Below, piece by piece: positions 26,488 through 52,705 of a stretch of 55,451 nucleotides of DNA (position 1 is its first letter; each line of letters starts with the position of its first letter). Source of the DNA: an uncultured Ignavibacteria bacterium (GTDB lineage Bacteria; Bacteroidota; Ignavibacteria; Tepidaquicellales; Tepidaquicellaceae); contig CALMST010000299.1 in assembly GCA_937872315.1 (NCBI GenBank), forward strand, positions 1 to 55,451, written 5' to 3'. Both the position numbers and the translations under genes were made by a program. Under the pieces are notes generated by a model that saw only the letters and a list, made by a program, of their open reading frames with translations, made no database searches and was not told the origin of the DNA.

Positions 26488-27498
26488 CTACAAATTCAGA
26501 TCTGTGTCATAAAGAGTAAAATAAAATCTTCCGGGATCTTTGAAAGGATCATCTTTAGCATAATAGATTACCTTTTCATCATTCCTTGATTTTATGAAAC
26601 CCGCTCCTGAAAGCCATTTCATCTCTTCAGTGGAGTTGGCAATTGCCTGAATCATTTGCGTCTCGTCATTTTCACATTCTCTGAATAAATATGCAAACAT
26701 ACCCAGAAAATCTGATTCGTCAGCGCAATGCCATTCATATAAATTAAAGTTGACTCCGAAATGTGAATACAACACATAACTTCCTTTTGGAGACATTATA
26801 GTTTTAAGTTTTGGAAAATAATTTAAAAATCCTGTTGCTCTCCATTCAAGAAATTCTTTATCATGTTTTATCTGGGGGTTACTGTCATTCTTTTGCCTCT
26901 GCGAGATAAGCAGTTCTACATCATTCAGTTCGCAGATATAAAATTCTGATTTTAATTTTTGAATATTATTTTTCTTTAACTTAAAATATGGTTTAATGAT
27001 TTTTGCAATTACCGGATTTACCGGTGATAATTTTTTTGGAACTGCCCAGCTTACTAATTTTCCGGGATCAACAGGAAAGACCATTAATCTCCCGCATTTA
27101 AAAGGCTTAAATCCCGCCTTTGTCATCAGCACATTTGCCTTTGGACTGGGATTGTTACCGAGAGTGATCATATCCCTTTCCATTGCCGCTTTGAAAAGTT
27201 TATTGCCTACACCTGATTTTCTGTGATCATGATCTACGATCAGATCGCATGCCCACTGCGCATTGTAATCATTTCCTTCTGAAGTTAAAGTAACAGGTAT
27301 AAGGCCTAGCTGTCCCAAAATTACATTATCCGATAATGCAAGAAGGAGCCCGTTTACAGTCCCTTTTTCAGGTCCTCTGAATTTCCATCTGTTGTAGATC
27401 TCTGATCTGCGTCTCTTCTTGCCGGGCCAGAGTTTAACGGAAAACTCTTCATGCATTTTCACAAACTCGTCGGAATATGGAAGTATCTCAATATTAAT
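26488..27498 (-). CDS. GNAT-family acyltransferase, probably starting at a non-canonical ATT
   Basis: The GNAT core shows WACDLIVDHDHRKSGVGNKLFKAAM with the acyl-CoA loop and then GNNPSPKANVLMTKAGFKP, a pattern seen in acyltransferases next to exopolysaccharide deacetylases. With the first standard start (GTG 27460-27462) the protein would lack the first GNAT strand. The frame stays open upstream and reads INIEILPYSDEFVKMHEEF, a good GNAT beginning, from ATT 27496-27498. An AAGGA sits 10 nt before this ATT, just at the upstream stop. No ATG, GTG or TTG exists in that stretch; a CTG at 27502-27504 is too close to the AAGGA. A C-terminal half of ~130 residues has no recognised domain. It probably N- or O-acylates a sugar exposed by the neighbouring deacetylase. 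Confidence 0.75.
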   Translation of the reverse strand: MNIEILPYSDEFVKMHEEFSVKLWPGKKRRRSEIYNRWKFRGPEKGTVNGLLLALSDNVILGQLGLIPVTLTSEGNDYNAQWACDLIVDHDHRKSGVGNKLFKAAMERDMITLGNNPSPKANVLMTKAGFKPFKCGRLMVFPVDPGKLVSWAVPKKLSPVNPVIAKIIKPYFKLKKNNIQKLKSEFYICELNDVELLISQRQKNDSNPQIKHDKEFLEWRATGFLNYFPKLKTIMSPKGSYVLYSHFGVNFNLYEWHCADESDFLGMFAYLFRECENDETQMIQAIANSTEEMKWLSGAGFIKSRNDEKVIYYAKDDPFKDPGRFYFTLYDTDLNL

Positions 27499-27511: not shown

Positions 27512-28363
27512 TTATTTAAAATATTTTCTAATGTAATCAGTTACCGTATATGCTTCAAGCGATCCGCTCTCTGTCTTTTCTCTGACAATTTCCATGAATT
27601 TATTAAAATGAATTTCACTTTCCGATTTATTCCTGCTCAGTGCCGCTGGATGTCCGACTATTACCAGAGTCTCATTTTTTTCAACTGCTTTTTCAAGATA
27701 CTTTTGCGCAAAATCATCAAACCCTGTATAATGCTGAGGGACGCAAACAATCCCGTCATGCATTTCCCATCTGTAAAAAAACATATCCTCGCTTCCCCTC
27801 CCGGCTAATTTCTTCCAGACAGGTTTATAGTTCTTCAAAACCCTGCACCATTTGTAATCAAGAGCATTCAGCTGTTTTAATATATACCCCATATCAGAAC
27901 CCTTGTGCAGAGGATAAAAACCCCTGTCCCCAAAACTTAATGCAAACTTTTTATACCAGCTCATTGGCCTGCTGTGAGGAGGTACAAATCCCGTAACAGA
28001 ATTTTTTATTCCGAGACACTCTTCCAGCGCATACTTACTTCTCTCCAGTGAACTGGTGATCTGCTTTTCCGACAGGTAAGGAAACCACTCATGCTTCCAT
28101 GAGTGTGATGCTATCTCATGTCCTTCACTATGGATTTTTCTGATCTGCTCAGGATTATTAAAAGGCATAACGCCTTTCTCAGCAGCAAAGCCAACACAGG
28201 CAAAGGTCATTTTTATATTTATCTCTTTTGCCCTTATCAAGATCTTTTCCACATTCTCAATCTCCTGATATATAGGATCATACTTGAAATTATATGGGAA
28301 TGTAGAATTGATCTGGCCTAATGCGGTATCGTAATCCCAGACTATCAGTAATTTTGCCGGCAT
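27512..28363 (-). CDS. polysaccharide deacetylase (CE4/NodB-like)
   Basis: The 283-residue protein has the NodB motifs: the metal and base aspartates in WDYDTAL (D10, D12), the zinc histidines in HEIASHSWKH (H87, H91), and the PPHSRP loop (128-133) as motif 3. There is no signal peptide, so it should work in the cytoplasm on a nucleotide sugar or lipid-linked intermediate rather than on exported polymer. It is followed immediately by a GNAT gene, suggesting removal of an acetyl group and replacement by another acyl. The start ATG 28361-28363 is 3 bp from the upstream GT-C stop. Confidence 0.87.
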   Translation of the reverse strand: MPAKLLIVWDYDTALGQINSTFPYNFKYDPIYQEIENVEKILIRAKEINIKMTFACVGFAAEKGVMPFNNPEQIRKIHSEGHEIASHSWKHEWFPYLSEKQITSSLERSKYALEECLGIKNSVTGFVPPHSRPMSWYKKFALSFGDRGFYPLHKGSDMGYILKQLNALDYKWCRVLKNYKPVWKKLAGRGSEDMFFYRWEMHDGIVCVPQHYTGFDDFAQKYLEKAVEKNETLVIVGHPAALSRNKSESEIHFNKFMEIVREKTESGSLEAYTVTDYIRKYFK

Positions 28364-28366
28364 TTA

Positions 28367-29809
28367 TTATTTTGGTTTAATCAGATTATATTCATCTTTA
28401 TCCTCATCTTCCCTCTTGCCGATCAGTGCGACAGCAAATACCGGAAAGAGAATATACGGAAAATTATATCTGGATCTAGTCTCGGATATCGGCATCAATG
28501 CCATTGTATAGATCAGGTAAGCCCATAAAATGTAAACGGAAAGCGATGAGAGTTTTTTATTTCTGTATAAAAATACAAAGGGAAAAAATAATATTATCCA
28601 GAAGAATAAATTTTCTATTGACTGAAAAAATCCTTCCGTATATGCGTCCAGAGGATAATTAGTGTACTGGAAAAAATAACTTATCGTCCAGTCCTGTCTT
28701 CCGGAATATTTTATCATTTTGAAAGGCATACCCTTTATTATTACATCCGGATTACTTTTGATAAAATCAAATGTTTCCTTCTGAAGAGCTTTATCAAATT
28801 CCATTTCAGACAGTTTATCATATTTGGCAATAACAGAATCAGGAACTCCATTATAATCACCAACTCTTTTCGGATCCTTCGTAACGTTACTGCTGTACAT
28901 CCCCAGACCGGTAGTCGGCATTAATCTTACTTCGCCGAACAATAAATAATTCCTGTATATCCACGGAGAATAAAATATCAGAAAGCTTATGTAAATTACA
29001 GCAAGCTTTTTTAATGCATGAAAAAGATTCTCGTCTTTGTGCTTCTCTATAAGAAACGGGACCAGTATCAGTATCATCAGAAAATTAAATCTGACATACA
29101 TCTCGGCTGTTAATAATATTCCGATCAGAACAAGCTGATACAACTTACCGGTATAGTTTTTTAATACAATGAAAAGTAAAATTATAAAAAAGAAAAATGA
29201 TAACTGGGTATTTGAGTTTGATGCCATGAAAAGCATATTCGGAGAAATGGCTATATAGGCAAATGCTATCAGTCCGGCTATGTTTCCTGTATCCCGGAAA
29301 AGATAATAGCCGCCTATCAAAACGCCAAAGGAAAACAGTATCATTATTACGGAGAAAGTCACAGGATTATTATAAATAAAAAGCCCCGCTGCAAAAACCG
29401 CCGGAAGCCCGGGCTGCCTGAAATTCCTTAACTCAATCCCGGAGAAATCATAAAACTCTCCTTCTGTCGCCATTCTCATTCCCAGCTTTTCATGCTTCTC
29501 ATAATCGCTGTCCTGTACGGGACGGTCAATCATGTCATGGACAGCAAACAATAATCTCAAAACAATTCCGGTAATCATTAGTGTTTTAAATAACTTCTGT
29601 TTGCTGATTTCAAATACATCTCTTTTAAAGATCCTCCGCACAACATAGAAAGCAGCTGCAATCAATAGTATCTCGAGTAGATAATCAGGGAATCTGTATT
29701 TTACAGCCAGCAATAACCTGTTGAATAATCCAGTAATTATCAGCAAAGCCAGAAGAATGATATTCCCCCATCTCCCCGTTGAATCATATAGCTTTAATAG
29801 TTTATTCAT
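28367..29809 (-). CDS. GT-C fold polytopic membrane glycosyltransferase (GT39-like)
   Basis: About twelve hydrophobic helices and the acidic motif VQDSDYEKH after the first helices (near residue 100 from the preferred start) identify a GT39-like GT-C enzyme that uses polyprenyl-phosphate sugars on the periplasmic side. I choose ATG 29807-29809 (MNKLLKLYDS), overlapping the WecE stop by 8 bp. A longer start at 29860 would overlap by 59 bp and add a hydrophobic lead with no clear role. It belongs to the cassette with WecE, WbqC, the PglD-like protein and the GtrB-like enzyme, and may transfer that amino sugar from Und-P (inference). Confidence 0.75.
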   Translation of the reverse strand: MNKLLKLYDSTGRWGNIILLALLIITGLFNRLLLAVKYRFPDYLLEILLIAAAFYVVRRIFKRDVFEISKQKLFKTLMITGIVLRLLFAVHDMIDRPVQDSDYEKHEKLGMRMATEGEFYDFSGIELRNFRQPGLPAVFAAGLFIYNNPVTFSVIMILFSFGVLIGGYYLFRDTGNIAGLIAFAYIAISPNMLFMASNSNTQLSFFFFIILLFIVLKNYTGKLYQLVLIGILLTAEMYVRFNFLMILILVPFLIEKHKDENLFHALKKLAVIYISFLIFYSPWIYRNYLLFGEVRLMPTTGLGMYSSNVTKDPKRVGDYNGVPDSVIAKYDKLSEMEFDKALQKETFDFIKSNPDVIIKGMPFKMIKYSGRQDWTISYFFQYTNYPLDAYTEGFFQSIENLFFWIILFFPFVFLYRNKKLSSLSVYILWAYLIYTMALMPISETRSRYNFPYILFPVFAVALIGKREDEDKDEYNLIKPK

Positions 29810-30947
29810 TTTCCGGATAATAATTTTTAATGTTGGTAATAACGTAGTCCAGATCTTCATCCGTTAGCTCATAATAAAATGGAAGTCTTAACAAATGTTC
29901 AGTATAAAAATCTGAATACTTAAATTCATTGTCACCGTTTTTATCTTTATAGAACTTACTTTTATTGAGTGAGAGATAATGAAACACTGCATCAATACCT
30001 TTTGATTTAAGATGTTTGATAAGCCCGGATCTGTCTTCAGGAGTTCTGCAGAGAATGTAAAACATGTGAGCATTATTGGTTGCATATTCCGGAATTTTCT
30101 GAAATCTCAGATACCCCTTTTCCGCAAGACCTGATAAATTCTTATAATAATATTCCCATATATGCTTTCTCTTCTTCTGAATGTCCTCTAGATTTTCCAG
30201 CTGTGCATAGAGAAAAGCCGCAATTATATCAGATGGCAGAAAAGATGATCCTATATCAACCCATCCGTATTTATCCACTTCACCTCTGAAAAAAGCTGAC
30301 CTGTTTGTTCCCTTCTCCCTTATAATTTCCGCCCTGCCGGAAAATGTCCCGTCATTAATTACAAGCATACCGCCTTCGCCTGATATTACATTCTTGGTTT
30401 CATGAAAAGAGAAAGCTGCAAGATGACCTATGGAACCCAATGGTCTGCCTTTGTAAAAAGAATCAACAGACTGCGCAGCATCTTCGACTACATATAAATT
30501 ATTCTTTTCCGCGATTTCCATTAACGGATCCATATCGACTGCTATGCCCGCATAATGCACCACAACAATTGCCTTTGTCTTATCGGTGATCAGACTTTCT
30601 ATTTTTTGAATGTCAATGTTCGGCGTCCCCTCTTCACTGTCGCAAAATACTATCTTTGCTCCTCTCAGTACAAATGCATTAACTGATGAAACAAAAGTGT
30701 AAGCTGGCGCAATCACTTCATCCCCGGGTTTTATCTCAAGCAGTATCGCTGCCATTTCAAGAGCGTCTGTACATGAAGTGGTAAGCAATACCTTTTCAAA
30801 ACCGTAACGCTTTTCAAAAAAACCATGACACTTCTTTGTGAAAATTCCGTCCCCTGAAATTTTCCGTGTCTGAACAGATTCAAGAATATACTCAGTCTCT
30901 TTACCGGTCAGATAAGGTTTGTTAAATCCTATTTTTCTCTTTTCCAA
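29802..30947 (-). CDS. wecE: TDP-4-keto-6-deoxy-D-glucose (dTDP-Fuc4N) transaminase WecE/RffA
   Basis: The 381-residue protein follows WecE closely along its length: ISGDGIFTKKC, VLLTTSCTDALEMAAILL, AFVLRGAKIVF, VHYAGIAVDMD, VVEDAAQ (D156), SFHETKN with the PLP Lys (K185), IREKGTNRSAFFRGEVDKY and NAHMFYI. WecE makes dTDP-4-amino-4,6-dideoxy-D-galactose from dTDP-4-keto-6-deoxyglucose with glutamate. The PglD-like acetyltransferase two genes upstream could then give dTDP-Fuc4NAc. No RmlA or RmlB is in the window to supply the substrate. Start is TTG 30945-30947. Confidence 0.92.
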   Translation of the reverse strand: MEKRKIGFNKPYLTGKETEYILESVQTRKISGDGIFTKKCHGFFEKRYGFEKVLLTTSCTDALEMAAILLEIKPGDEVIAPAYTFVSSVNAFVLRGAKIVFCDSEEGTPNIDIQKIESLITDKTKAIVVVHYAGIAVDMDPLMEIAEKNNLYVVEDAAQSVDSFYKGRPLGSIGHLAAFSFHETKNVISGEGGMLVINDGTFSGRAEIIREKGTNRSAFFRGEVDKYGWVDIGSSFLPSDIIAAFLYAQLENLEDIQKKRKHIWEYYYKNLSGLAEKGYLRFQKIPEYATNNAHMFYILCRTPEDRSGLIKHLKSKGIDAVFHYLSLNKSKFYKDKNGDNEFKYSDFYTEHLLRLPFYYELTDEDLDYVITNIKNYYPENE

Positions 30948-30978
30948 ATTTTAATAAATATTTTATCGATTGATTTTA

Positions 30979-31881
30979 TTATTCCAGTATTGCCAGTCCG
31001 AATCCTGATTTACCATGGCTGTTGCCGTTATACAACATATAAGTATTTTCTTTATGTGTTAAAACAAACGGATAACACACCATCTCTGAATCCCATCCTT
31101 CCTCTGAAGCTTTTATTCCGGAGTTTAAATTGTCAGACTCCCAGTTGATCCCGTCATTACTTCCGGAATAACCAATTTTATACTTCGAACCGTCTCCGCT
31201 CCTGTATGAATACCACATATGATACTTTCCGTCTTTAATCAATAATGCCGGTCTTGAAAATGCCTGAGCTTTTCCGATCTCATAAGGAATAGCCAATCCC
31301 TTCCTGTCCCAGTTAACCCCGTCTTTTGATTCAGCATATTTGATCACATGTATCATCTCTCCGTTTTCAGAACTCCAGTCTATAGTTGTGCCATACCACA
31401 TTTTGTATATTCCATTCTCAAATATCACATAAGGATATGACAGACTTACAGGATCTTCTTCATCTGTTGTGATAAAAGGTTTAGCAGGATCGAGAAACAA
31501 TTCCGAATTTTTGTTTCTCAAAATCAACCTGCCTATGTCTCCTCTCCAGTGCATGCCTTCGGGACACTGCCAGCCCATGAATAAGATGTATTCATTTTCA
31601 CCGGTTTTATAAGAACCGCCGATGCTCACTCCATGCGAATAAAAAGTATCGTCTTCCCCGTATTTAAAAACTGGTTTTTTATGATCATATACAATTTCGT
31701 TTTTTATTATGTCAATATCCGCATAGGATACTGAAGATCTGTTATCTGCATTTCTTCCATTGTAAAATATCCTGTAAACATCATCATGCAAAAAAAGCGC
31801 AAGAGGATTTGAAGAATGAGTCAGCAAAAAAGGATCATCATTTTCAGGAAGATAGATACGTCCCAGCTTATTCCATTTCAT
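30979..31881 (-). CDS. five-bladed beta-propeller glycosidase-like protein (GH43/GH32 clan fold)
   Basis: The 300-residue protein has repeated blade signatures: LSYPYVIFENGIYKMWYGT, SRPALLIKDGKYHMWYSYR and CYPFVLTHKENTYMLYNGN, plus DPFLLTHSSNPLALF at the start. This is the pattern of GH43/GH32-like propellers. There is no signal peptide, so it is cytoplasmic, unlike degradative glycosidases. Homologous propellers occur in surface-glycan loci with no known function, to my knowledge. It sits between WecE and a PglD-like acetyltransferase, so it could be a transferase or a binding protein for this sugar rather than a hydrolase. Function is unassigned. Confidence 0.7.
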   Translation of the reverse strand: MKWNKLGRIYLPENDDPFLLTHSSNPLALFLHDDVYRIFYNGRNADNRSSVSYADIDIIKNEIVYDHKKPVFKYGEDDTFYSHGVSIGGSYKTGENEYILFMGWQCPEGMHWRGDIGRLILRNKNSELFLDPAKPFITTDEEDPVSLSYPYVIFENGIYKMWYGTTIDWSSENGEMIHVIKYAESKDGVNWDRKGLAIPYEIGKAQAFSRPALLIKDGKYHMWYSYRSGDGSKYKIGYSGSNDGINWESDNLNSGIKASEEGWDSEMVCYPFVLTHKENTYMLYNGNSHGKSGFGLAILE

Positions 31882-31910
31882 GAATTGTAATTTTAAATTT
31901 ATCTGATCTG

Positions 31911-32579
31911 TCAGGATATCTTTATCTCATCGCTCTTTTTTTCAAAGAGAGTTGACCGTGCCGGAAGGTAAACACCTTTCTCGACCGTGTCTTTCATAAT
32001 AATGGCACCAGCCGCTATAAGAGTCTCCGGAGCAATTGTTATCCCGTCACGGATAGTTGCATTCACTCCTATGAAACAGTTATTCCTGATCTTTACAAAA
32101 CCGGAAACCACCGCATGAGAAGTTATAAAATTATGGTCATCTATTTCCACATCATGACCTATATGATTCCCGCTCCACAGGACTACATTGTTTCCGATCT
32201 TTACATATGGCTGGATAGTATTATCCTCCAGAATAAAACAATTATCACCAGCCGGAAATTGTGAAAGAAACGAACACCTGGAGCTGATGTAATTTGCCAT
32301 TGCATATCCTTTAGCTTTGCTTTCATTATACATTTTTTCCCGTATCTTATTCATGTCAGTATATCCCACTGCCACAAATGCTTCATACTCACCGGGAGGA
32401 TATTTTTTTTCTATATCTTCAAATGCTTCCACAGGAAGTCCTTCAAATGTATTACCGGAAATATATTTTTCATTTACGGAGAATGCAACAACTTCTTTAT
32501 CCGAATCAATATCAAAAAAATATCTGGCAAGTCTGGCATTTGATGTATTACCTATTATTATTAATTTTTTCTTATCCAT
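31911..32579 (-). CDS. PglD/NeuD-like sugar acetyltransferase
   Basis: An N-terminal Rossmann-like PglD_N domain (residues 1-90, KKLIIIGNTSNARLARYF) is followed by left-handed beta-helix repeats. The candidate catalytic His lies in NHIGHDVEIDDH (H142). The end, LIAAGAIIMKDTVEKGVYLPA, is typical. Family members acetylate the 4-amino group of UDP/dTDP-amino sugars or sialic acid using acetyl-CoA. As neighbour of WecE, dTDP-Fuc4N is the obvious substrate, but the 4-amino-trideoxy sugar made by the CapD/PglE-like pair is a second possibility. Confidence 0.87.
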   Translation of the reverse strand: MDKKKLIIIGNTSNARLARYFFDIDSDKEVVAFSVNEKYISGNTFEGLPVEAFEDIEKKYPPGEYEAFVAVGYTDMNKIREKMYNESKAKGYAMANYISSRCSFLSQFPAGDNCFILEDNTIQPYVKIGNNVVLWSGNHIGHDVEIDDHNFITSHAVVSGFVKIRNNCFIGVNATIRDGITIAPETLIAAGAIIMKDTVEKGVYLPARSTLFEKKSDEIKIS

Positions 32580-32624
32580 ATTTATTTATCAGTTTTTGTT
32601 ATCTGTTAATTGTTATTTTCTGCA

Positions 32625-33314
32625 TTAAAATGATTTCATGAATTTTATAGTATCAGGACCCTCATTGAATATAAGATCAAGTATGCTCACGGCATGAGTG
32701 AATTCTCCGTGAAGCTGCCTGTACTCAGGATATCCCGAATAATCAAAATAATGCACTTTGATGTTTTCTTTATCGAAAAGCTCTTCGTTCATATATGCCT
32801 TTGCCGCGGGTCCGGAATAATAATCGGTAGCTCCTTCCTTTTTGCAAATATCAACAAGCCGCTCCGTCTTCTCCTCCAGTAATTTGAATTCAGAAGACCA
32901 TTTCATCTCAGTCCTGATACCAAGTATTTCACATATAGCTTTGATAAAGTTATAATTTATTTTACTCAGGTATTCTTCATCTGAGTTAAGATAAAGCTCC
33001 TCGAATATTTTCTTATACTCGTTAAAATATTTTGCTTTGGAATAATTATGCACTATTGTGTTCCAGTGCTTCTCTCCCCAGTCCGGTTCGCTGACCTTTG
33101 TTTCATTTATCTTCTGAAAATATTTCCCTTTTACTTCAACAGGTATGCTGAGCCATTTTAAACCGTCTTTAGTTTTGATCTGATTCCTGTTTCGCCAGTC
33201 CCTTCTTGTATACTGCATGTCATCATACAGAACGAATTCATCCGCCATGTTTATAGAATCAAAATATCCCTTCCATGGAATGTAGTTGGATTGCGTTATT
33301 ATTATTTTTTTCAA
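32625..33314 (-). CDS. WbqC-family protein
   Basis: The 229-residue protein starts IIITQSNYIPWKGYFDSINMAD and continues FVLYDDMQYTRRDWRNRNQIK, the signature of the WbqC family. Members are found in O-antigen and capsule loci near amino-sugar aminotransferases, but their reaction is not established, to my knowledge. Here it is in a run with WecE, a PglD-like acetyltransferase and a GtrB-like enzyme. Start is TTG 33312-33314, giving MKKIIITQSN. I assign the family with high confidence and no function. Confidence 0.9.
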   Translation of the reverse strand: MKKIIITQSNYIPWKGYFDSINMADEFVLYDDMQYTRRDWRNRNQIKTKDGLKWLSIPVEVKGKYFQKINETKVSEPDWGEKHWNTIVHNYSKAKYFNEYKKIFEELYLNSDEEYLSKINYNFIKAICEILGIRTEMKWSSEFKLLEEKTERLVDICKKEGATDYYSGPAAKAYMNEELFDKENIKVHYFDYSGYPEYRQLHGEFTHAVSILDLIFNEGPDTIKFMKSF

Positions 33315-33320
33315 ATGTAA

Positions 33321-34259
33321 TTAAAGATTTATTTTTTTCTCAATAATATAAAGTGGTCTGTCTTTGGTCTGCTCAAATATCTTTCCGATATAGATCCCTG
33401 CTATGCCAATGCTCATAAGTATCAGTCCTGTAGAGAAAAGTATAGCTACAATTATACTTGGCCATCCCGGCTGATATTTCAGAAGAAAATAACTTACGGC
33501 TATAAACAATGAAGCTAAAAATGATAATATGGAAATTACAAGACCGGTATAGATCGAAAGCCTTAAAAGTTTATCCGAATAAGATGTCCAACCCTGTAAA
33601 GCAGTCAAAAATAATTTGGATACAGAGTATGTAGAAGTTCCTTCGAATCTTTCTCTGTGCTCTACCGGAACATATGTGGAACTGAATCCCACCCATTTCA
33701 GCAGCTGTATATACAATCTGTCCTGATCCTTTAATTTCAGGAATTCATCCTTTACTCTTCTGCTGATCATTGTCATGGATCCGACATCAAGGTCATAATC
33801 TTTATTCGAAAACAAACTGAACAATGTATTATAGATCTTGGCTGTTATTTTTTTAAAGAATGAATGTTTCCTTCCGATCCGTTTCGTGAAAACAACATCA
33901 TAACCTTTATTGAATTCATCAAAAAGTTTCTTAATATGAGCCGGATCATCCTGAAGATCACAATCCATTATTACTATAATATCACCTGAAGCCTGACTCA
34001 AACCGGCGGTTATTGCATAATGCTGTCCGAAATTTCTGCTGAGCTTTACGCCTTTAACAAAATCATATTTCTTACAATTTTCCTCAACCTTCTCCCAGGT
34101 GCCGTCACCGCTGCCGTCTTCCGGAAGCACTATTTCAAAATCACCGGTGATCCTGCTTAATTCTTCTGATAGTCTTTTTACAAGTTCATCAACGATCTTT
34201 TCAGACTTATAAACAGGACTTACTATTGATATTGAAACCGGTCTTTCAGTATTATTCAT
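33321..34259 (-). CDS. GT2 polyprenyl-phosphate sugar transferase (GtrB/ArnC-like)
   Basis: The GT-A domain has SIVSPVYKSEKIV near the start, VLPEDGSGDGTW and the DXD region VIMDCDLQDDP. Two C-terminal transmembrane helices (about 235-260 and 268-295) precede the typical IGIAGIYIGKIFEQTKDRPLYII, as in GtrB and ArnC. Such enzymes load a nucleotide sugar onto undecaprenyl phosphate. It opens the WbqC/PglD-like/WecE/GT-C run, so Fuc4N(Ac) is a candidate cargo. No GtrA flippase gene is adjacent. Confidence 0.88.
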   Translation of the reverse strand: MNNTERPVSISIVSPVYKSEKIVDELVKRLSEELSRITGDFEIVLPEDGSGDGTWEKVEENCKKYDFVKGVKLSRNFGQHYAITAGLSQASGDIIVIMDCDLQDDPAHIKKLFDEFNKGYDVVFTKRIGRKHSFFKKITAKIYNTLFSLFSNKDYDLDVGSMTMISRRVKDEFLKLKDQDRLYIQLLKWVGFSSTYVPVEHRERFEGTSTYSVSKLFLTALQGWTSYSDKLLRLSIYTGLVISILSFLASLFIAVSYFLLKYQPGWPSIIVAILFSTGLILMSIGIAGIYIGKIFEQTKDRPLYIIEKKINL

Positions 34260-35447: not shown

Positions 35448-36629
35448 TTAACTGTTCAGGGTTGTACTGTACAAATCCGCAAAATCTTTTATCTGTCTTT
35501 CCGGAGAAAATTTTTCTTCAATGACAGCCTTTGCATTTTTTATTAATTCAGGTACTGACTTACCTTCACTTCGTATATACTCGGAAATTTTATCAGCCAT
35601 TAACTCCGGCTCTCTTATTCTTACAATGTATCCGTTTATGTTATCTTCAACTGCTTCATTCATCCCCCCGCAATCTGTAGTGACGACCGGTACACCTGCA
35701 GCCATTGATTCCAGTACTACATTTGCAATTCCTTCTTCCACACTTGGCAATATCAGCATATCAGATCTGATCAGTCTTTTTATAAGTTCATCAAATTTCA
35801 TACCCGGAATTATATTTACTTCACCGTTAAGTTCATATTCATTTATCAGGAACAGGATCTCTTCAGGAACTTTCCCCTGAGCTATTATTGTATATCTGAA
35901 TTTTATTTTTCTGTCTTTAAGTATTTTCATGGTATCCAAAGCATAATGATATCCCTTCTTCCAGTGAAATCTTCCTATCGAAATTATCTCAAATGATCCG
36001 GCTGCAGGTTCTTTTTCACTATTGAGTTGCAGAAGATCTTTATTCACGCTGGAATATATAACCTTTATTCTGTCCCCGGCTGCACCGTATTTTACAGTTT
36101 CTTTTTTTATGGCTTCCGATACAGCATGATATCCGTCTATTACAGGAAAATATTTTCTGTATGCTTCCGAAAGTTTTTTATCTGTAAGGGGTGAATAATT
36201 TATATGCGCTCCTCTCAGACTCAGTATTATTTTACTGTCCAGCAATTCAAACAATTCCGGATTCTGTAAAACTGTCTTTGCCCATTGTATGTGAAAAATG
36301 TCATGCTTTTGTATCAGTATCGGAAGGATCATTCCCATATTTTTTAAAAATGCTCCGGTACTTTTATTTTTTCTGTTTATTGCTTTGATTGCTTTAAAAA
36401 ATTTTCCCGGATCCTTCATCATCAGAATAAAGGAATTCTTTATGATGAAAAAAATCAATGGAAGCTGTCTTACAGGAGTCGGATATACCTTCACATTCTT
36501 ACCGTAATTTACGGTACCTTTTAATTTACCGAATAAAAGTATCTCAAATCCATATTTATCAAGACCTTTTATAAGATTTTCTATAAAAGTAGTGGATGGT
36601 ATATTTCCCGAATAGACGGCTACTCGCAT
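35448..36629 (-). CDS. GT4 glycosyltransferase
   Basis: The 393-residue protein shows IISIGRFHWKKGYHYALDTMK and the EX7E motif EEGIANVVLESMAAGVPVVTTDCGG. Its layout is close to the next downstream GT4 (34262-35443), with the same length, so the two may be ancient duplicates. It overlaps the end of the asparagine-synthetase-like gene by 10 bp. It should add a sugar to the lipid-linked repeat unit in the cytoplasm. Confidence 0.88.
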   Translation of the reverse strand: MRVAVYSGNIPSTTFIENLIKGLDKYGFEILLFGKLKGTVNYGKNVKVYPTPVRQLPLIFFIIKNSFILMMKDPGKFFKAIKAINRKNKSTGAFLKNMGMILPILIQKHDIFHIQWAKTVLQNPELFELLDSKIILSLRGAHINYSPLTDKKLSEAYRKYFPVIDGYHAVSEAIKKETVKYGAAGDRIKVIYSSVNKDLLQLNSEKEPAAGSFEIISIGRFHWKKGYHYALDTMKILKDRKIKFRYTIIAQGKVPEEILFLINEYELNGEVNIIPGMKFDELIKRLIRSDMLILPSVEEGIANVVLESMAAGVPVVTTDCGGMNEAVEDNINGYIVRIREPELMADKISEYIRSEGKSVPELIKNAKAVIEEKFSPERQIKDFADLYSTTLNS

Positions 36630-38050
36630 ACAGGCAGATCCTTGAACTGATTTTTTTTACAGAACATGGAAAGAACAAGAAGCATGTTTACCGAATGCGA
36701 ATATTTAACATCCTCTTTTTGAAATTTTTCATAAAAGTCTGCCACCAGATCAGCGGATAAGAATTCGCCGAATTTTTTATTCTGAAATAAATGCTCTTTA
36801 AGTTGCTTTGAATTTCTTTCACCAAGAAACTGTATTTCCCAGTTCCTCTGTATCATTTTATTTTTTAAAAATTTTTCCTTCAGCAGTCTCTTTCCTTTTT
36901 TAACCGCCCGTAAAGGTAATCTCATCTTTGAATCAAACTTCCTGTAATTATACAAATTCATAGGCGCATAATCCTGCCAGGCTATCTTTGCTATCCCGGA
37001 ATTTTTTAGTTTAATGTAATTGATCTGAATCTGTCTTCCCGCAAGATGTTTCTCGGGAACCCTGCAGATAAACTTGCAGATCTCATCATCATAATAAGGC
37101 AGTACTGCAGGTCTGTAACTGCTGAATATATCCAGGTTTGCGCTTGTCCATCTTGGAGCCCAATACATTGATTTAAAAGCCCTGATCTTTGAATTTGCAT
37201 TTTCTATTTTTATTCCATCGAGCAGATCTGAGATCCTTTCTACGAGATGATCTTTAAAATTTCCCTCAAGTCCCCAGCAATTCCACATGGAATCTGCAAG
37301 CTCAAATCCGCCTTTCTTAATGATCTTCTTAATAACATTTTTAATCAACTCTTCATTATTCAAATTATCATCCACTCCCATATCATCAAACAGAACATCT
37401 CCCCAGTGACCCAGAAAAAAAACATCCCCGAGTTCTGATACATCATCGATGACTGCCATTTGCCTTGGACTTGTAAAGTCCGCATAACATTTATTTATTT
37501 CCGCAAGCTCATCTATGCAATTCCATAAATAACCTACAGGTATTGTATATTCCGAATAAGGGTAAGACCTTACCTTGCTGATCTCCCTTCCGTAACTGGT
37601 TTCATCAAAACTGTCCTGAAATTTATAAGAATAACTTCTGACATTAAAATTATCAGGAAGTGCAACTGACTGCGTCCTGCTGTCAAGTCCGCCCGATAAA
37701 GGCAGTATAACATTCCTGTCAGAAAGTTTTTCTCTGCAGATCTTTTCAAATAAATGCGCAAACTCTTCTGTAACTTGTTTTAAAGATCTTTCCTCAGGAT
37801 CGTAATTCCATTTCCAGTACTGCTCTGATCCGGTAACAATATTATTTTCATCTAAAATATAATCCGTAGCCGGCTGAAGCGCTATTTTATTTACATAGTA
37901 TGAATCTTCTCCAAGAAAGAATCCTGTCGCAGCAAATATACAAATTGCTTTATGGTTAATATCCTGACCATTGCCTTTTAATGCAAATTTTTGAGTCTGC
38001 GGAATTATTGATGTTTTTATATTATTCAACCGAATCTTTAAACCAGACAA
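36620..38050 (-). CDS. asparagine synthetase-like protein lacking the glutaminase active site
   Basis: The 476-residue product has the synthetase PP-motif LPLSGGLDSR (117-125) and later GHWGDVLFDD and YWAPRW, so the ATP-dependent half is present. The first ~90 residues are only a remnant of the glutaminase domain (KIALQPATDYILDENN resembles its end), and there is no MCG start, so no catalytic Cys is available. Compared with ~600 residues in the two full copies it is ~120 shorter. It may use free ammonia, take it from a partner, or ligate another amine. Start TTG 38048-38050 overlaps the upstream GT2 gene by 29 bp; a later start is possible. Confidence 0.8.
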   Translation of the reverse strand: MSGLKIRLNNIKTSIIPQTQKFALKGNGQDINHKAICIFAATGFFLGEDSYYVNKIALQPATDYILDENNIVTGSEQYWKWNYDPEERSLKQVTEEFAHLFEKICREKLSDRNVILPLSGGLDSRTQSVALPDNFNVRSYSYKFQDSFDETSYGREISKVRSYPYSEYTIPVGYLWNCIDELAEINKCYADFTSPRQMAVIDDVSELGDVFFLGHWGDVLFDDMGVDDNLNNEELIKNVIKKIIKKGGFELADSMWNCWGLEGNFKDHLVERISDLLDGIKIENANSKIRAFKSMYWAPRWTSANLDIFSSYRPAVLPYYDDEICKFICRVPEKHLAGRQIQINYIKLKNSGIAKIAWQDYAPMNLYNYRKFDSKMRLPLRAVKKGKRLLKEKFLKNKMIQRNWEIQFLGERNSKQLKEHLFQNKKFGEFLSADLVADFYEKFQKEDVKYSHSVNMLLVLSMFCKKNQFKDLPVCE

Positions 38051-39015: not shown

Positions 39016-39672
39016 TTATTTTCTGGCAATTGAATAGATTGTTGTCTCCGGCATCAGTCTTGATAACTGAAAGATACCTTTTCCGAAAAATTTTCTGTGA
39101 ATCCTTCTCAGCTGATATCCTAAAACTGATTCATCTTTATGTCTTTCATGCAGTAGTTGAGGAAAAGGATTTACAAGTTCTGACAGATTCACATCTTTAT
39201 CCCTGGTAAACGATATTTTCGCTCTGGAATCTATAAACTCAAGTTCTGAAAATAACTGCTTTGTTCCGTCATATGTAAATCTCCAGAGATCTACCGGCAT
39301 TTTTGAAATTTTTCTTACAAAGCATTCAGAGAAAACTGCGCTTCCCCCTTTTTTAAGCATACCTGTAATATTATCTGCTGCAATAAAAGGATTCTTTACA
39401 TTAGTTAATATTTCCATGCAAATTATAGTGGAATAATGATCTTTATGACCTTTAATGAATTCTGAGTCTGTATCAGTTATGTCCACTTTATGATCTACTC
39501 CATCGCCTTCAAAAAGATCTATTCCGGTAATATCTGATAAACCGGATTTAACCAGAAAACTTCTGATATCCTCTTTATCGAAATCATATAACTTGGAACC
39601 TACTATCAGCACAGGATCATTGATAAGATCCTTGTTTAAATCGAGATAATTTATCTGGTTTTTTGTTGCCAT
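39016..39672 (-). CDS. methyltransferase-like protein with degenerate SAM-binding motif
   Basis: The 218-residue protein has the overall pattern of a small class I methyltransferase: VLIVGSKLYDF as beta-1, ITGIDLFEGDGVDH as beta-2, YSTIICMEILTNVKNP as motif IV, and LKKGGSAVFSECF. Motif I lacks the usual GxGxG (it reads VGSKLYD), so SAM binding may be altered or lost. It overlaps the deacetylase-like gene by 22 bp. It could be a methyltransferase or an inactive partner protein. Confidence 0.65.
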   Translation of the reverse strand: MATKNQINYLDLNKDLINDPVLIVGSKLYDFDKEDIRSFLVKSGLSDITGIDLFEGDGVDHKVDITDTDSEFIKGHKDHYSTIICMEILTNVKNPFIAADNITGMLKKGGSAVFSECFVRKISKMPVDLWRFTYDGTKQLFSELEFIDSRAKISFTRDKDVNLSELVNPFPQLLHERHKDESVLGYQLRRIHRKFFGKGIFQLSRLMPETTIYSIARK

Positions 39673-47608: not shown

Positions 47609-48400
47609 TCATTTTAAATATTTAATGTATTCTGTTTCTTTGAAATAATCATACACTTCATTATAATTTAAAATTACTTCCTCCAGATCCTCAGGCACAA
47701 TTCTCTTCAGATCTGTCCTGACTTTTACAGATTCCAGTCCTAGATACCTGAAAATTTTATCCGCAGTTTCCTGATGCTTCGAATTTTCTATCAGATCATC
47801 TTCATATGTAACAGTTATGTGGTCTATGTTCCTTAAATTTTCCGCTTCAGTTTTATTTACAACCTCTCCGTATTTAATTCCCTCCATCAGCTGCTCGCAA
47901 TCCACTTTTACTTTGAAAGAAGAGTTTTTATCACCATTTTTGAGATGAAAAATTCTGGTCTGCGCTGAAATTATATTTGAAAGCTTATGACGGAAATAAT
48001 TGTCCCGCCTCAGATAAATGAATTTGTATCCTTCATTGAATAATTTTTTTAGTATCTGTTCATAATTGTCATATTCGTGCTCATATCTTAACTGGGCTAT
48101 CTTTACTTTAAATCCATAGACTGTCTTGCCGTGCTTTGCCGCTCTTTTACTGCAGCTTTTTATGTATATCTCAGGAAATTTAATTTTGCTGCCGCTGTAG
48201 AGAAAATTAAAAATTTCAACGTCACAGAAGATATCAGGATGGCAGTTTAAAAGATCCGTAAGTACTGTGCTGCCTGTTCTTCCTCTGGTGTAAATTAAAA
48301 ATTTTGATTCCGGATAACTTAAACGCGGATTTACCAGATCTATGTATTTATTTCTTTTTAATGACCTTTTTATATCTCTGAAATTTTTACCGAGCTTCAT
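47609..48400 (-). CDS. sulfotransferase (LPS/NodH-type, PAPS-dependent)
   Basis: The 263-residue protein has YTRGRTGSTVLTDLL (37-51), the 5'-phosphosulfate binding loop, followed by HPDIFCDVEIF, and GYKFIYLRRDNYFRHKLSNIIS in the place of the 3'-phosphate binding region. This pattern is typical of bacterial carbohydrate sulfotransferases. It overlaps the aminotransferase gene by 1 bp (TAATG). PAPS would have to be made by enzymes encoded elsewhere. A sulfated or amino-sulfated sugar is the expected product (inference). Confidence 0.85.
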   Translation of the reverse strand: MKLGKNFRDIKRSLKRNKYIDLVNPRLSYPESKFLIYTRGRTGSTVLTDLLNCHPDIFCDVEIFNFLYSGSKIKFPEIYIKSCSKRAAKHGKTVYGFKVKIAQLRYEHEYDNYEQILKKLFNEGYKFIYLRRDNYFRHKLSNIISAQTRIFHLKNGDKNSSFKVKVDCEQLMEGIKYGEVVNKTEAENLRNIDHITVTYEDDLIENSKHQETADKIFRYLGLESVKVRTDLKRIVPEDLEEVILNYNEVYDYFKETEYIKYLK

Positions 48401-49527
48401 TAGTTCAGGATCTGTTTTAAAGTATTTATAATATGAGTTATGTCTTCCGGATCCATTGGCGCATATAAGGGTATCATAATACTCCTGTCACATGCATCTT
48501 CTGATACCGGGAGTCTCAGATCTTTATATTCATCTCTGTATGATGTTTCCCTGTGAGCGGTGAGCACTCCCCTCCGGGATGAGATACCTGCATTAAGAAG
48601 TTTTTCCATAAGCTCATTCCTGCCAACCGGAGCGCTGTCTTTAAGATAAATTGAAAATGACTGATAGTTTGAAAAATATCCTTCCTTTTCAATTGGTAAT
48701 TCCAGACATTCAATACTGCTGAGCTCTTTAATATATTTCAATGCTGTCTTTCTTCTTTCTTCAATTATATGATCAAGCTTTTCAAGTTGCCTCAATCCTA
48801 TAGAAGCCTGTATGTCTGTCATTCTGTAATTGTATCCGAGAACAATGTGATCTTCAAAAATTATTTTCCCTGATTCGTGTCTTGCTCTGTCATTGACAGA
48901 CATTCCGTGCTGTCTGAGTAATTTCACCTTTTGATAAATACTCTCATCATCAGTGGTGATCATTCCGCCTTCGCCAGTTGTAATTACTTTTCTCGGATGA
49001 AATGAAAAACAAATTATGCCCGGATTAGAACCGATTTTTTTACCTTTATAAGAAGATCCTGCCGCGCATGCCGCATCCTCAATAATTTTAATGTTATACT
49101 TTTCTGATAATTTTACAAAAGCATCTATGTCAGCAGGCATTCCGAGCTGATGAACAAGGATTATTGCTTTCGTTTTTTCAGTGATCAGACTTTCGGCATG
49201 TTCAGCATTCAGATTATATGTATCCCTGTCAATTTCACCGAACACAGGTGTTGCTCCCGCATACCTGATGCAATTTGCTGATGCCACATAACTCATCGAC
49301 GGTGTTATTACCTCATCTCCTTCACCTATTTCCGATACTATCATTGCAAGATGCAATGCCGTTGTGCAGTTCGATACTGCTGCAGCATATTTCGCGCCTG
49401 TATATTCACAAAACTTTTTTTCAAATTCCTCCACTCTCGGACCCTGAGTAACCCATCCGGTGAGTATTGTATCATATGCGCTCTTTGCTTCATCAGAAGT
49501 AAGATATGGTTTTGCAATTGGTATCAT
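48400..49527 (-). CDS. DegT/DnrJ/EryC1/StrS aminotransferase
   Basis: The 375-residue enzyme has GWVTQGPRVEEFE (24-36), IIEDAACAAGSSYKGKK (D151) and FSFHPRKVITTGEGGM with the PLP Lys (K180). It would form a 4- or 3-amino nucleotide sugar from a keto sugar. Neighbours are a formyltransferase 69 bp upstream, then a Gfo/Idh oxidoreductase and a second aminotransferase. A C3-oxidation plus transamination route, as in the WlbA/WlbC pathway, is one option; a perosamine-like route is another. Confidence 0.9.
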   Translation of the reverse strand: MIPIAKPYLTSDEAKSAYDTILTGWVTQGPRVEEFEKKFCEYTGAKYAAAVSNCTTALHLAMIVSEIGEGDEVITPSMSYVASANCIRYAGATPVFGEIDRDTYNLNAEHAESLITEKTKAIILVHQLGMPADIDAFVKLSEKYNIKIIEDAACAAGSSYKGKKIGSNPGIICFSFHPRKVITTGEGGMITTDDESIYQKVKLLRQHGMSVNDRARHESGKIIFEDHIVLGYNYRMTDIQASIGLRQLEKLDHIIEERRKTALKYIKELSSIECLELPIEKEGYFSNYQSFSIYLKDSAPVGRNELMEKLLNAGISSRRGVLTAHRETSYRDEYKDLRLPVSEDACDRSIMIPLYAPMDPEDITHIINTLKQILN

Positions 49528-49596
49528 ATATCAGATAATTGTTTCTTCAAATTTATTTTAAACATTTTATAGCGATTTAGCTTTTTTCAAACTGTC

Positions 49597-50526
49597 TCAT
49601 AAAAGAGTATCAGAATAAGATCTGACACCGGCTGAAGGATTTTCAATTTTTCCTGTCCCGGTGTTTTCCCATTCCGTAATTTTCAATGAACCTGAACCGC
49701 ATAATACTTCTATGCCATTTTCATCAATATCTATAACTCTTCCCGCTATTCTTCCATCAAATGATTTTTCATTCATTTTTCCTGATTCAGCTTTTCTTAT
49801 GATATACTTGTTATTATTATGAATGCAAAAAGCTCCTGTAAAAGGAAATGCCAGAGCTCTTATCAGATCATATATCTTTTCTGAATCCATATTCCAGTTT
49901 ATCTTTCCGTCTTGAGGCGTTCTTTTGCATGTGTAAGTTGCTTTACCATCTTCCTGCCTGATCAAAGATTTTTTGCTTAAAGTTTTCTTTTTGATAATAT
50001 CAAGAAATGCTTTAACAGTTACCCGGATTAATTTTCTTTCAACATCATTTGCATATTCGTTTCTTCCGATCTTTAATTTTTTCTGAAAAAGGATCTTACC
50101 CGAATCAACCCCGCCTTCTTCTATCCTGAAAATAGTCACTCCGGTATTCCTGTCTCCGTTTATTATAGCCCATTGCATAGGGGCAAATCCTCTGTATTTT
50201 GGCAACAGTGAATAATGCGCGCCGAATATCCCGAATCTGCAATATGAATTCAGCCCTGTTTCAATAAGAGTTCTCCAGCCATATACAAAAATTAAATCCG
50301 GTCTGATCTTTTTAATGATCGCATGATCTGTTTCAGATAGTTTCTTCCTGACTGTATATCCTATTCCTTTTTGTTTTAACAGATTTATAATCTTATCTGA
50401 ATATTTAATGTTCTCGTGATCATCTTCTTTGCAAATGACAGAATATGCGGGGAAAATATTTTTTGAGATAGCTGTACTGATAAGTTCTAATCCTCCGCGT
50501 CCGCCGCCTATGAATATATATTCCAA
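49597..50526 (-). CDS. sugar N-formyltransferase-like protein with altered active-site motif
   Basis: The 309-residue protein has the formyltransferase core GAHYSLLPKYRGFAPMQWAIING (102-124) and GGVDSGKILFQ (138-148) and a C-terminal OB-like domain. ArnA and Fmt have Asn-x-His plus Asp as catalytic residues. Here His104 and Asp141 are present but the Asn position is Gly102. The likely reaction is N-formylation of an amino sugar with N10-formyl-tetrahydrofolate, as WbkC does on GDP-perosamine in Brucella. A perosamine-synthase-like gene lies two genes upstream. Start is TTG 50524-50526. Confidence 0.82.
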   Translation of the reverse strand: MEYIFIGGGRGGLELISTAISKNIFPAYSVICKEDDHENIKYSDKIINLLKQKGIGYTVRKKLSETDHAIIKKIRPDLIFVYGWRTLIETGLNSYCRFGIFGAHYSLLPKYRGFAPMQWAIINGDRNTGVTIFRIEEGGVDSGKILFQKKLKIGRNEYANDVERKLIRVTVKAFLDIIKKKTLSKKSLIRQEDGKATYTCKRTPQDGKINWNMDSEKIYDLIRALAFPFTGAFCIHNNNKYIIRKAESGKMNEKSFDGRIAGRVIDIDENGIEVLCGSGSLKITEWENTGTGKIENPSAGVRSYSDTLL

Positions 50527-50569
50527 TGTTATTTACAGTTAATTTATTTTTTGTATTGATCCGTATAAA

Positions 50570-51574
50570 TTATTTTATAAATACTTCTTTTCCTTTATTC
50601 TTTATTGACTCCTGTGAAGCTTCAAGAATTTTGATTACTTCCAGTCCTGAAACAAAATCCGAAACAGGCTTTGTGTTATTCATTATTGAAGAGATAAAAT
50701 CCACAGCCATAAGAGAAAGAGCTTCTTTCTGATCAAGCTTCGGGGTGTAAATATCACCTGTCCGGTAATCAACAAGTATGTTTTTTTTATCTTCATCGGT
50801 CTTGTGTTCATAACCGGTATCATAAACTTTTATTTTTTCGGTCGGCTCTATGTCATTGAATACTATCATTTTCTTATCACCGCCTATAAGCATCATTCTT
50901 ATCTTTACGGGCGAGCTCCATGAGCAGCTGAAATGCGCTATCAATCCGGAACTGTAGTTTACGATTATATATGCAATGTTCTCAATTCCGTTGTTAGTAT
51001 GCGAAACACCGTTTGCATTCAGACTCAATGGCTTTTCTTTTATCAGATAATTCAAAATTGAAATATCATGAGGAGCAAGATCCCATAATACATTAACGTC
51101 GGGTTGAAATAATCCGAGATTTATCCTTGTCGAATCAAAATACTTTATGTTCCCTATTTCTCCGTTTGTAATAAGTGATTTCATTTTCTGAACCGAGCCG
51201 GTATATAGAAATGTATGATCTACCATCAGAACTTTATTTTTTCTTTCTGCTAATTCAATAAGCGTAATTGCCTCTGCAGTTCCTGAAACCATCGGCTTCT
51301 CAAGCAGCACATGTTTATCATTATTCAATGCTCTTAATGCAAAATTGTAATGAGTATGTACAGGTGTTGCAATAACTACAGCATCAATTTCCTTATCATT
51401 TAAAATAATATCGGCTGAGGTGATAAATTGCGCGGTGGGGCATAGCTTTTTTAATCCGGCTTCTCTTTCCTGTCTTATATCGGCTACATATTTTACATTT
51501 ACATCCTTAAGAGCTGCAAAATTTCTTACCAGGTTTGTACCCCAGTATCCGAATCCGATTATACCAATGTTCAT
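50570..51574 (-). CDS. Gfo/Idh/MocA oxidoreductase
   Basis: The 334-residue enzyme has the Rossmann GFGYWGTN (7-14), IATPVHTH, the EKP motif (92-94) and DLAPHDISILNYL with the catalytic His region. Family members oxidise or reduce sugars and nucleotide sugars using NAD(P). Between two DegT aminotransferases and a formyltransferase, it probably oxidises a hydroxyl of a nucleotide sugar before transamination, as WlbA does, but the substrate is not determined. Confidence 0.88.
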   Translation of the reverse strand: MNIGIIGFGYWGTNLVRNFAALKDVNVKYVADIRQEREAGLKKLCPTAQFITSADIILNDKEIDAVVIATPVHTHYNFALRALNNDKHVLLEKPMVSGTAEAITLIELAERKNKVLMVDHTFLYTGSVQKMKSLITNGEIGNIKYFDSTRINLGLFQPDVNVLWDLAPHDISILNYLIKEKPLSLNANGVSHTNNGIENIAYIIVNYSSGLIAHFSCSWSSPVKIRMMLIGGDKKMIVFNDIEPTEKIKVYDTGYEHKTDEDKKNILVDYRTGDIYTPKLDQKEALSLMAVDFISSIMNNTKPVSDFVSGLEVIKILEASQESIKNKGKEVFIK

Positions 51575-51592
51575 GTAAATTTTTATATTTTA

Positions 51593-52705
51593 TTAATTTT
51601 TAAAAATTGCTCTTATGCTGCCAATGGTTCTGTCTATCTGATCATTTGATATTGCAAGCCCGCTTGGTATATAAAAACCCATTTCCGATAATTCTTCAGA
51701 AACAGGATAATTTTCATTTACAAACAGATCCATTTTTTTAAACACCGGCTGAAGATGCATGGGATAGAAAAAAGGTCTGGTTCCGATCTTTTGATCCGCA
51801 AGTTTTTTCATTGCTTTAACTGCATTTATTCCTGTTTCCTTTTTTATCACGATCCCGTAAACCCAGTATATGTTATCGGAGTATTCTGTTTTTTCAAGTG
51901 GCAATCTTATACTCTTCAGATCTTTTAAACCTTCGTTATACATTTTGCCGATATGTCTTTTCTTTTCAATGAATTCATCAAGTCTTTCAAACTGAGCCAT
52001 TCCGAGCGCAGCCTGAAGATTTGTCATTCTGAAGTTAAATCCGAGTTCATCATGTACAAATCTTTTTCCGGACTGAAAACACAAATTTCTCAATGACCTG
52101 CATCTCTCTGCAGTTTCTACATCATCAGTTAAGATCATTCCGCCTTCACCTGTTGTAATATGCTTATTGGGATAAAAGCTGAATGTGCTCACATCTCCGA
52201 AACTCCCGCATTGTTTTCCGTTATAAGTCTGGCCAATGAGTTCTGCGGCATCTTCTATTATCTTCAGTTCATATTTTAAAGCAAGCTTTTGGAGAGGTTC
52301 CATATCCACGGGCAGTCCGTAAATATGAACGGCCATAATCGCTTTAGTCCTTGAAGTAATTTTGTCCTCTATCTGCCCGACATCCATATTCCATGTTTCA
52401 GGATCCGAATCTACAAGTACAGGCATTCCGCCTGCCCGTATTACTGCAGATGCGCACGAAATTATTGTAAAAGCCGGCATTATTACTTCATCACCTTTTC
52501 CAATACCTGCCGCAATCACAGCAGCTTCAAGCGCTGCAGTTCCGTTGCAGACTGCTATACCGAATTTTCTTCCTGCCCGTTTTGAGAATTCTTCTTCAAA
52601 CTTTTTTACAAAAGGACCTTCAGATGAGATCCATCCGGTATCTATGCATTCCTCGAGATATTTCTTTTCATTGCCGTCCAGCAATGGTTCATTTACCGGG
52701 ATCAT
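51593..52705 (-). CDS. GDP-perosamine synthase-like aminotransferase
   Basis: The 370-residue protein shows the perosamine synthase pattern: GWISSEGPFVKKFE (24-37), CNGTAALEAA, TWNMDVGQIEDKIT, AVHIYGLPVDMEPL, EDAAELIGQ (D152) and FSFYPNKHITTGEGGM with the PLP Lys (K181). Perosamine synthases use GDP-4-keto-6-deoxymannose. The Rmd-like SDR upstream uses the same compound, which supports the call. No GDP-mannose 4,6-dehydratase is in the window. Its ATG overlaps the cupin gene stop (ATGA). Confidence 0.85.
   Translation of the reverse strand: MIPVNEPLLDGNEKKYLEECIDTGWISSEGPFVKKFEEEFSKRAGRKFGIAVCNGTAALEAAVIAAGIGKGDEVIMPAFTIISCASAVIRAGGMPVLVDSDPETWNMDVGQIEDKITSRTKAIMAVHIYGLPVDMEPLQKLALKYELKIIEDAAELIGQTYNGKQCGSFGDVSTFSFYPNKHITTGEGGMILTDDVETAERCRSLRNLCFQSGKRFVHDELGFNFRMTNLQAALGMAQFERLDEFIEKKRHIGKMYNEGLKDLKSIRLPLEKTEYSDNIYWVYGIVIKKETGINAVKAMKKLADQKIGTRPFFYPMHLQPVFKKMDLFVNENYPVSEELSEMGFYIPSGLAISNDQIDRTIGSIRAIFKN

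Follow-up and report, generated by a model that had tools for sequence, protein, structure and literature searches.

The six genes packed between positions 28367 and 34259 of the window, i.e., the whole stretch of 55,451 nucleotides analysed here, constitute a genuine, conserved and widely exchanged, mobile amino-sugar module. The reading towards which we lean, with reserve, is that the product of this cassette is a 4-amino-4,6-dideoxy sugar in aminoacylated form, that beyond the inner membrane this sugar is added to a polysaccharide, and that WbqC acts as the aminoacyl ligase. Gene content, conservation, the WbqC fold, the pairing of subtypes and the setting in E. coli O121 are observed, whereas each reaction is inferred. 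Amino-acid-bearing amino sugars are known from many surface polysaccharides; to our knowledge, no enzyme that attaches the amino acid to such sugars has been characterised so far. The pathway originally predicted holds in outline; three features go beyond it, namely the likely modification with an amino acid by WbqC, a wider cassette that includes a deacetylase and a GNAT-like protein, and a swap of the propeller gene.

All six ORFs are encoded close together on the minus strand, at the coordinates and with the family assignments first proposed for them (Table 1). The genome assembly that contains the window comprises 4.56 Mb, and the named genomes closest to it are MAGs that bear the labels Ignavibacteria and Bacteroidetes. 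In four loci from MAGs with these labels (L011-L014), the order GtrB-WbqC-PglD-propeller-WecE-GTC is kept, and it is extended in the same order by a gene for a CE4 deacetylase and then by one for a GNAT-like protein, which is 44-50% identical to its counterparts. The neighbouring glycosyltransferases are also syntenic with these loci. Because the four loci share this gene order, the grouping is not a matter of chance, and the view that the six genes form one module is borne out. Elsewhere in the window, a 476-aa protein without a Pfam match (36620-38050) is likewise kept in L011-L014, at 55-59% identity, and positions 47609-52705 hold a second amino-sugar module, with two DegT aminotransferases, a formyltransferase, a MocA-type oxidoreductase and a sulfotransferase-like gene.

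Table 1. Genes of the conserved cassette, with assigned or proposed products
Position	Strand	Product	Basis
33321..34259	-	GtrB/ArnC-like GT2, probable undecaprenyl-phosphate sugar loader	PF00535; PDB relatives sll0501, ArnC
32625..33314	-	WbqC, proposed aminoacyl ligase/transferase on dTDP-4-amino sugar	PF08889; HUP fold model; O121 context
31911..32579	-	PglD/NeuD-like hexapeptide acyltransferase, proposed N-acyl cap	TIGR03570 just below cut-off; PglD structures
30979..31881	-	Five-bladed propeller, cytoplasmic, GH130/GH137-like fold	AlphaFold model and structure matches
29802..30947	-	WecE, predicted dTDP-4-amino-4,6-dideoxygalactose transaminase	TIGR02379 and NF008687 above cut-off
28367..29860	-	GT-C-type membrane glycosyltransferase (likely start 29809)	Invariant motifs, five syntenic relatives
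27512..28363	-	CE4 polysaccharide-deacetylase-like protein, possible ArnD-like deacylase	PF01522; D10, D12, H87, H91 invariant in five relatives
26488..27462	-	GNAT-like protein, end of conserved cassette	PF13527; syntenic in L011-L014

When genome contigs were scanned with a WbqC profile, the best 80 matching loci came from many phyla; these are the top matches to the query, and the fractions derived from them therefore hold for close WbqC relatives only. Neighbours were counted in those 46 loci that have 7 kb or more of sequence to either side, WecE being scored within 10 kb. WecE is found in 35/46 of these loci and a DegT aminotransferase of any kind in 38/46, followed by a loading-type GT2 (29/46), PglD (28/46), the propeller (19/46), a module methyltransferase (18/46) and EamA (10/46); WecE and the GT2 occur together in 22/46. 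One candidate for the module methyltransferase, encoded in the window at 39016-39672, was dropped, as it gave no match to that profile. The same set of neighbours is present on annotated plasmids from Rhizobium, Azospirillum and Bernardetia. Two Sulfurimonas loci have the minimal order GtrB-WbqC-WecE-EamA, with no PglD and no propeller, which places WbqC on the WecE product. WbqC and WecE are also encoded in Flavobacterium johnsoniae CI04 (L017), and F. amnicola (L016) has the propeller as well. At the level of the phylum, 209/395 genomes have PF08889 matches, many of them of a diverged type, and no module genes were found near WbqC in four loci of this diverged type that were examined. At one of them (L188:9230-9874), the diverged WbqC adjoins genes for a signal peptidase and dapB, and sugar genes are absent from its surroundings.

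The subtype of WbqC also follows the aminotransferase encoded beside it. W-type WbqC has WecE within 10 kb in 55 loci and another DegT only in 7, and Y-type WbqC has WecE in 0 and another DegT only in 15 (Fisher p 5e-11, with relatedness ignored). In addition, WecE scores above the cut-off in 7/7 genomes of the phylum that encode a WbqC of the QSNYIPWKG[YF]F type, versus 50/395 overall. This pairing suggests that WbqC works on the product of the aminotransferase with which it is paired. A second WbqC, of the Y type, is encoded in the window genome (L002:1193-1891; G000:C272), where it adjoins a 326-aa protein without a Pfam match.

WecE itself scores 518.7 bits against TIGR02379 (cut-off 434.85) and 556 bits against NF008687 (cut-off 375). 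The proposal that its product is the substrate of the module is supported; the name Fuc4N for this product derives from membership of the WecE family. RmlA and RmlB are required for dTDP-4-keto-6-deoxyglucose, and both are encoded outside the cassette in the window genome, above cut-off, so that the WecE substrate can be made.

WbqC is a member of PF08889 (281.9 bits; cut-off 21.3), a family for which the Pfam text reportedly suggests a glycine transferase. A search of the literature on WbqC, wbnG and glycyl O-antigen clusters, with most subscription journals outside its reach, found no functional paper. The AlphaFold model of WbqC (pLDDT 91.5) has a HUP (Rossmann-like) fold, whose best match is class I LysRS (1irx_B; Z 10.6, rmsd 3.0, 172 residues aligned), followed by PPAT, TyrRS and cytidylyltransferases with Z about 7. 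Indeed, each of the 50 fold matches listed is either a class I tRNA synthetase or a nucleotidyltransferase, from the class I aminoacyl-tRNA synthetase / HIGH nucleotidyltransferase superfamily; cyclodipeptide synthases are absent among these 50. Foldseek gave no match to the model at E < 0.001, and the likeness to the synthetase fold therefore rests on the second aligner. Alignment of the WbqC profile with class I LysRS by hhalign gave a probability of 0.2, i.e., no sequence relation, so the link between the two is one of fold only; a search of the PDB with the WbqC sequence produced no credible match. The modelled fold suggests a function in amino-acid or acyl transfer, and, as judged from this model and by analogy, WbqC probably forms an amide between the dTDP-4-amino sugar and an amino acid. 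Long ORFs with WbqC towards the C-terminus (L049, L071, L086 and L186) were considered as fusions and set aside, their upstream part being judged by eye to be read-through and no second domain.

The HIGH-type histidines are absent from WbqC; the equivalent loop, set by eye from model and sequence, reads [WY]xG[YFL] in 109/109 readable proteins. Nor did a search of the C-terminal 75 residues in 117 WbqC proteins find a KMSKS-like pattern, although diverged forms may remain. Given these two absences, ATP-dependent activation by WbqC stays putative. A variant of our preferred reading, which we put forward tentatively and with some doubt, is that WbqC takes the amino acid from aminoacyl-tRNA, without ATP. 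The synthetase-like fold that has lost its HIGH histidines would fit such a route, as would the precedents of cyclodipeptide synthases and SbzA, which are class I synthetase relatives that draw on aminoacyl-tRNA (PMC4159871, PMC9437257); however, a tRNA-binding part was not identified in the 229-residue WbqC.

In the published O-antigen of E. coli O121, according to a passage of the review PMC3210612 (its ref. 147), Qui4N bears an N-acetylglycyl group; E. coli O114 has an N-acetylseryl sugar (PMC2905691), which we count as a reserve on our reading. A probe consisting of two primer sequences detected wzx, annotated as the flippase gene of O121, in 13/5426 E. coli genomes, and the O121 wbqC gene is also found in 13/5426, the first-listed strains being the same. 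The locus has the order rmlB-rmlA-DegT-WbqC-GNAT-wzx, with the genes from rmlB through GNAT abutting or overlapping. The aminotransferase being assigned to Qui4N, WbqC and the GNAT are left, by elimination, for the glycyl and acetyl groups. The O121 WbqC is of another subtype than that of the window and is 28% identical to the window WbqC; this difference, and the GNAT in the place of PglD, speak against our reading. An E. coli genome labelled O103 carries the O121 wbqC at 100% identity (NZ_CP193495.1, 1893763-1894479); the label may be wrong.

The O121 locus also bears on a plain acyl-Fuc4N pathway, in which the PglD-like enzyme acetylates WecE-made Fuc4N, and WbqC O- or C-modifies, or binds, the sugar nucleotide. 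The PglD-like enzyme scores 158.4 bits against TIGR03570, 2.4 bits below the cut-off of 160.8, and matches the structures of PglD and perosamine N-acetyltransferase, i.e., solved amino-sugar N-acetyltransferases. From these relatives, its step may be an acetylation, as originally proposed. These matches, the frequency of PglD in the WbqC loci counted above, and its position directly after WbqC in 12/80 of the best-matching loci all favour such a pathway. We nevertheless regard it as rather improbable, since some loci have WbqC and WecE without PglD, and since the amino acid and the acetyl group in O121 both need enzymes, with only WbqC and the GNAT between the aminotransferase and the flippase.

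In the aminoacylation pathway that we prefer, WecE would yield dTDP-Fuc4N, as expected at the level of its family; WbqC would attach an amino acid, which may be glycine, at the 4-amino position by an amide bond; and the PglD-like enzyme would then acyl-cap the free amine of that amino acid, a part apparently played by the GNAT in E. coli O121. The ArnC-like GT2 would move the sugar to undecaprenyl phosphate. The nearest NCBIfam models of this GT2, PgfS and ArnC, are both below cut-off (159 bits against the ArnC equivalog NF007986, cut-off 529); its PDB relatives are sll0501 (E 7e-53) and ArnC (E 2e-40), and the latter likeness supports the predicted Und-P loading, though the ArnC cut-off is missed. 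The loaded sugar would subsequently be flipped; EamA/GtrA genes are found in some other loci, and none in the cassette. The GT-C enzyme would transfer the sugar outside the inner membrane, the CE4 deacetylase could strip a protecting acyl group in the manner of ArnD, and the propeller might bind or modify the acylated sugar.

The AlphaFold model of the propeller (pLDDT 92.9) confirms the five-bladed fold. Its closest structures are BT_0996 (Z 29.4, rmsd 3.0, 284 residues) and Teth514_1788, a GH130 phosphorylase (9gph_B; Z 29.1, rmsd 2.4, 268 aligned). Among sequence profiles, GH32N is barely above its cut-off, and GINT1_N scores 19.9 bits, below its cut-off of 27. In GH130 enzymes, the Asp of the EDPR segment is catalytic; its place appears to be taken by A-[IF]-[SG]-x-P in an alignment of the propeller-family profile, at about 15% identity. 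This aspartate not being seen, hydrolysis or phosphorolysis by the GH130 route is doubtful, and the propeller is probably not a hydrolase. Its identity to the syntenic copies in L011, L013 and L014 is 34-37%, whereas WecE, PglD, WbqC and GtrB are 70-82% identical to the same relatives; a Flavobacterium copy, in contrast, is 62% identical to the window propeller. It therefore looks as though the propeller gene was swapped in the window genome through transfer. True propellers are encoded in 12/395 genomes of the phylum, with WecE above cut-off in 6/12 (p 0.002). In 11 propeller loci outside the window genome, WbqC is near in 5/11, DegT in 6/11, PglD in 5/11 and WecE in only 1/11. Thus, the tie between propeller and Fuc4N is loose, and the propeller belongs to amino-sugar modules generally rather than to Fuc4N specifically. 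The original prediction had linked both WbqC and the propeller to WecE and GtrB; the link stands for close WbqC relatives, and partly fails for the propeller.

A Pfam search with the GT-C protein gave no match. The motifs RPVQDSDYEKH, FRQPGLP and ETRSRYNFP are invariant among its five syntenic relatives and support its proposed role as the transferase. Its true start is probably at 29809, not 29860, since 3/4 syntenic relatives begin there. The GNAT-like protein scores 26.2 bits against PF13527 (cut-off 25). The transfer genes raise the question of an Arn-like protect-load-deprotect scheme, in which PglD or WbqC only protects the amine, CE4 deprotects it on Und-P, and the GT-C enzyme transfers a cationic, free-amine Fuc4N. 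WecE, the ArnC-like GT2, CE4 and GT-C do parallel ArnB, ArnC, ArnD and ArnT, and the four invariant CE4 residues are in line with such a scheme; yet we consider it quite unlikely. The CE4 gene occurs in only 4/80 of the best-matching WbqC loci, and is therefore a local addition; an ArnA formyltransferase is absent from the cassette, a formyltransferase lying 15 kb off (49597-50526) beside other aminotransferases; and the GT2 falls short of the ArnC cut-off.

If WbqC does aminoacylate, its presence would predict aminoacyl sugars from genomes across many phyla, and its synthetase-like fold would tie surface-sugar chemistry to the translation machinery. This would explain how many bacteria build amino-acid-carrying sugars, and WbqC, long annotated as a family of unknown function, is now directly testable with purified enzymes. 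A broader proposal, which we regard as possible though doubtful, is that WbqC proteins are small, HIGH-less, HUP-fold sugar-nucleotide aminoacylases, possibly acting via aminoacyl-tRNA, at the core of a mobile kit for aminoacyl-sugar decoration shared by many phyla, in which the propeller would be a part that confers specificity and can be exchanged.

The proposed chemistry has a counterpart in MshC, the mycothiol cysteine ligase, a relative of class I CysRS that couples an amino acid to the amine of a sugar by an amide bond, as a passage of PMC9437257 reports (citing Sareen 2002). The two share a class I synthetase-like fold and, for WbqC as proposed, this kind of bond. However, MshC depends on ATP and is related to CysRS in sequence, whereas WbqC is without the HIGH histidines and without a detectable sequence relation to the LysRS tested. 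For the propeller, two Bacteroidota proteins (L211:2666-4288 and L212:3133-4740) carry a GINT1_N propeller fused behind a formyltransferase-like domain. In both proteins a propeller is linked with an N-acyl transfer domain, which, by analogy, hints at a role of the propeller in N-acylation, but the propeller of the window stands alone as a protein and falls under the GINT1_N cut-off. The O121 cluster resembles the cassette in that an aminotransferase, a WbqC-family protein and an N-acyltransferase are encoded in one operon for a dTDP-6-deoxy-4-amino sugar. It differs in its aminotransferase, in its WbqC subtype and in having a GNAT for PglD; it lacks a propeller, neither an ArnC-like loader nor a GT-C gene is named in it, and its product is a Wzx/Wzy polymer. 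Lastly, the Arn pathway, which places L-Ara4N on lipid A, likewise combines an aminotransferase, an ArnC-like Und-P transferase, a CE4 deacylase and a GT-C transferase, and an EamA-like flippase is found in related WbqC loci. The cassette, in contrast, employs a dTDP-6-deoxyhexose and not a UDP-pentose, has WbqC and PglD and not a formyltransferase, and its target is probably a polysaccharide. The parallel with Arn is real in logic, not in membership.
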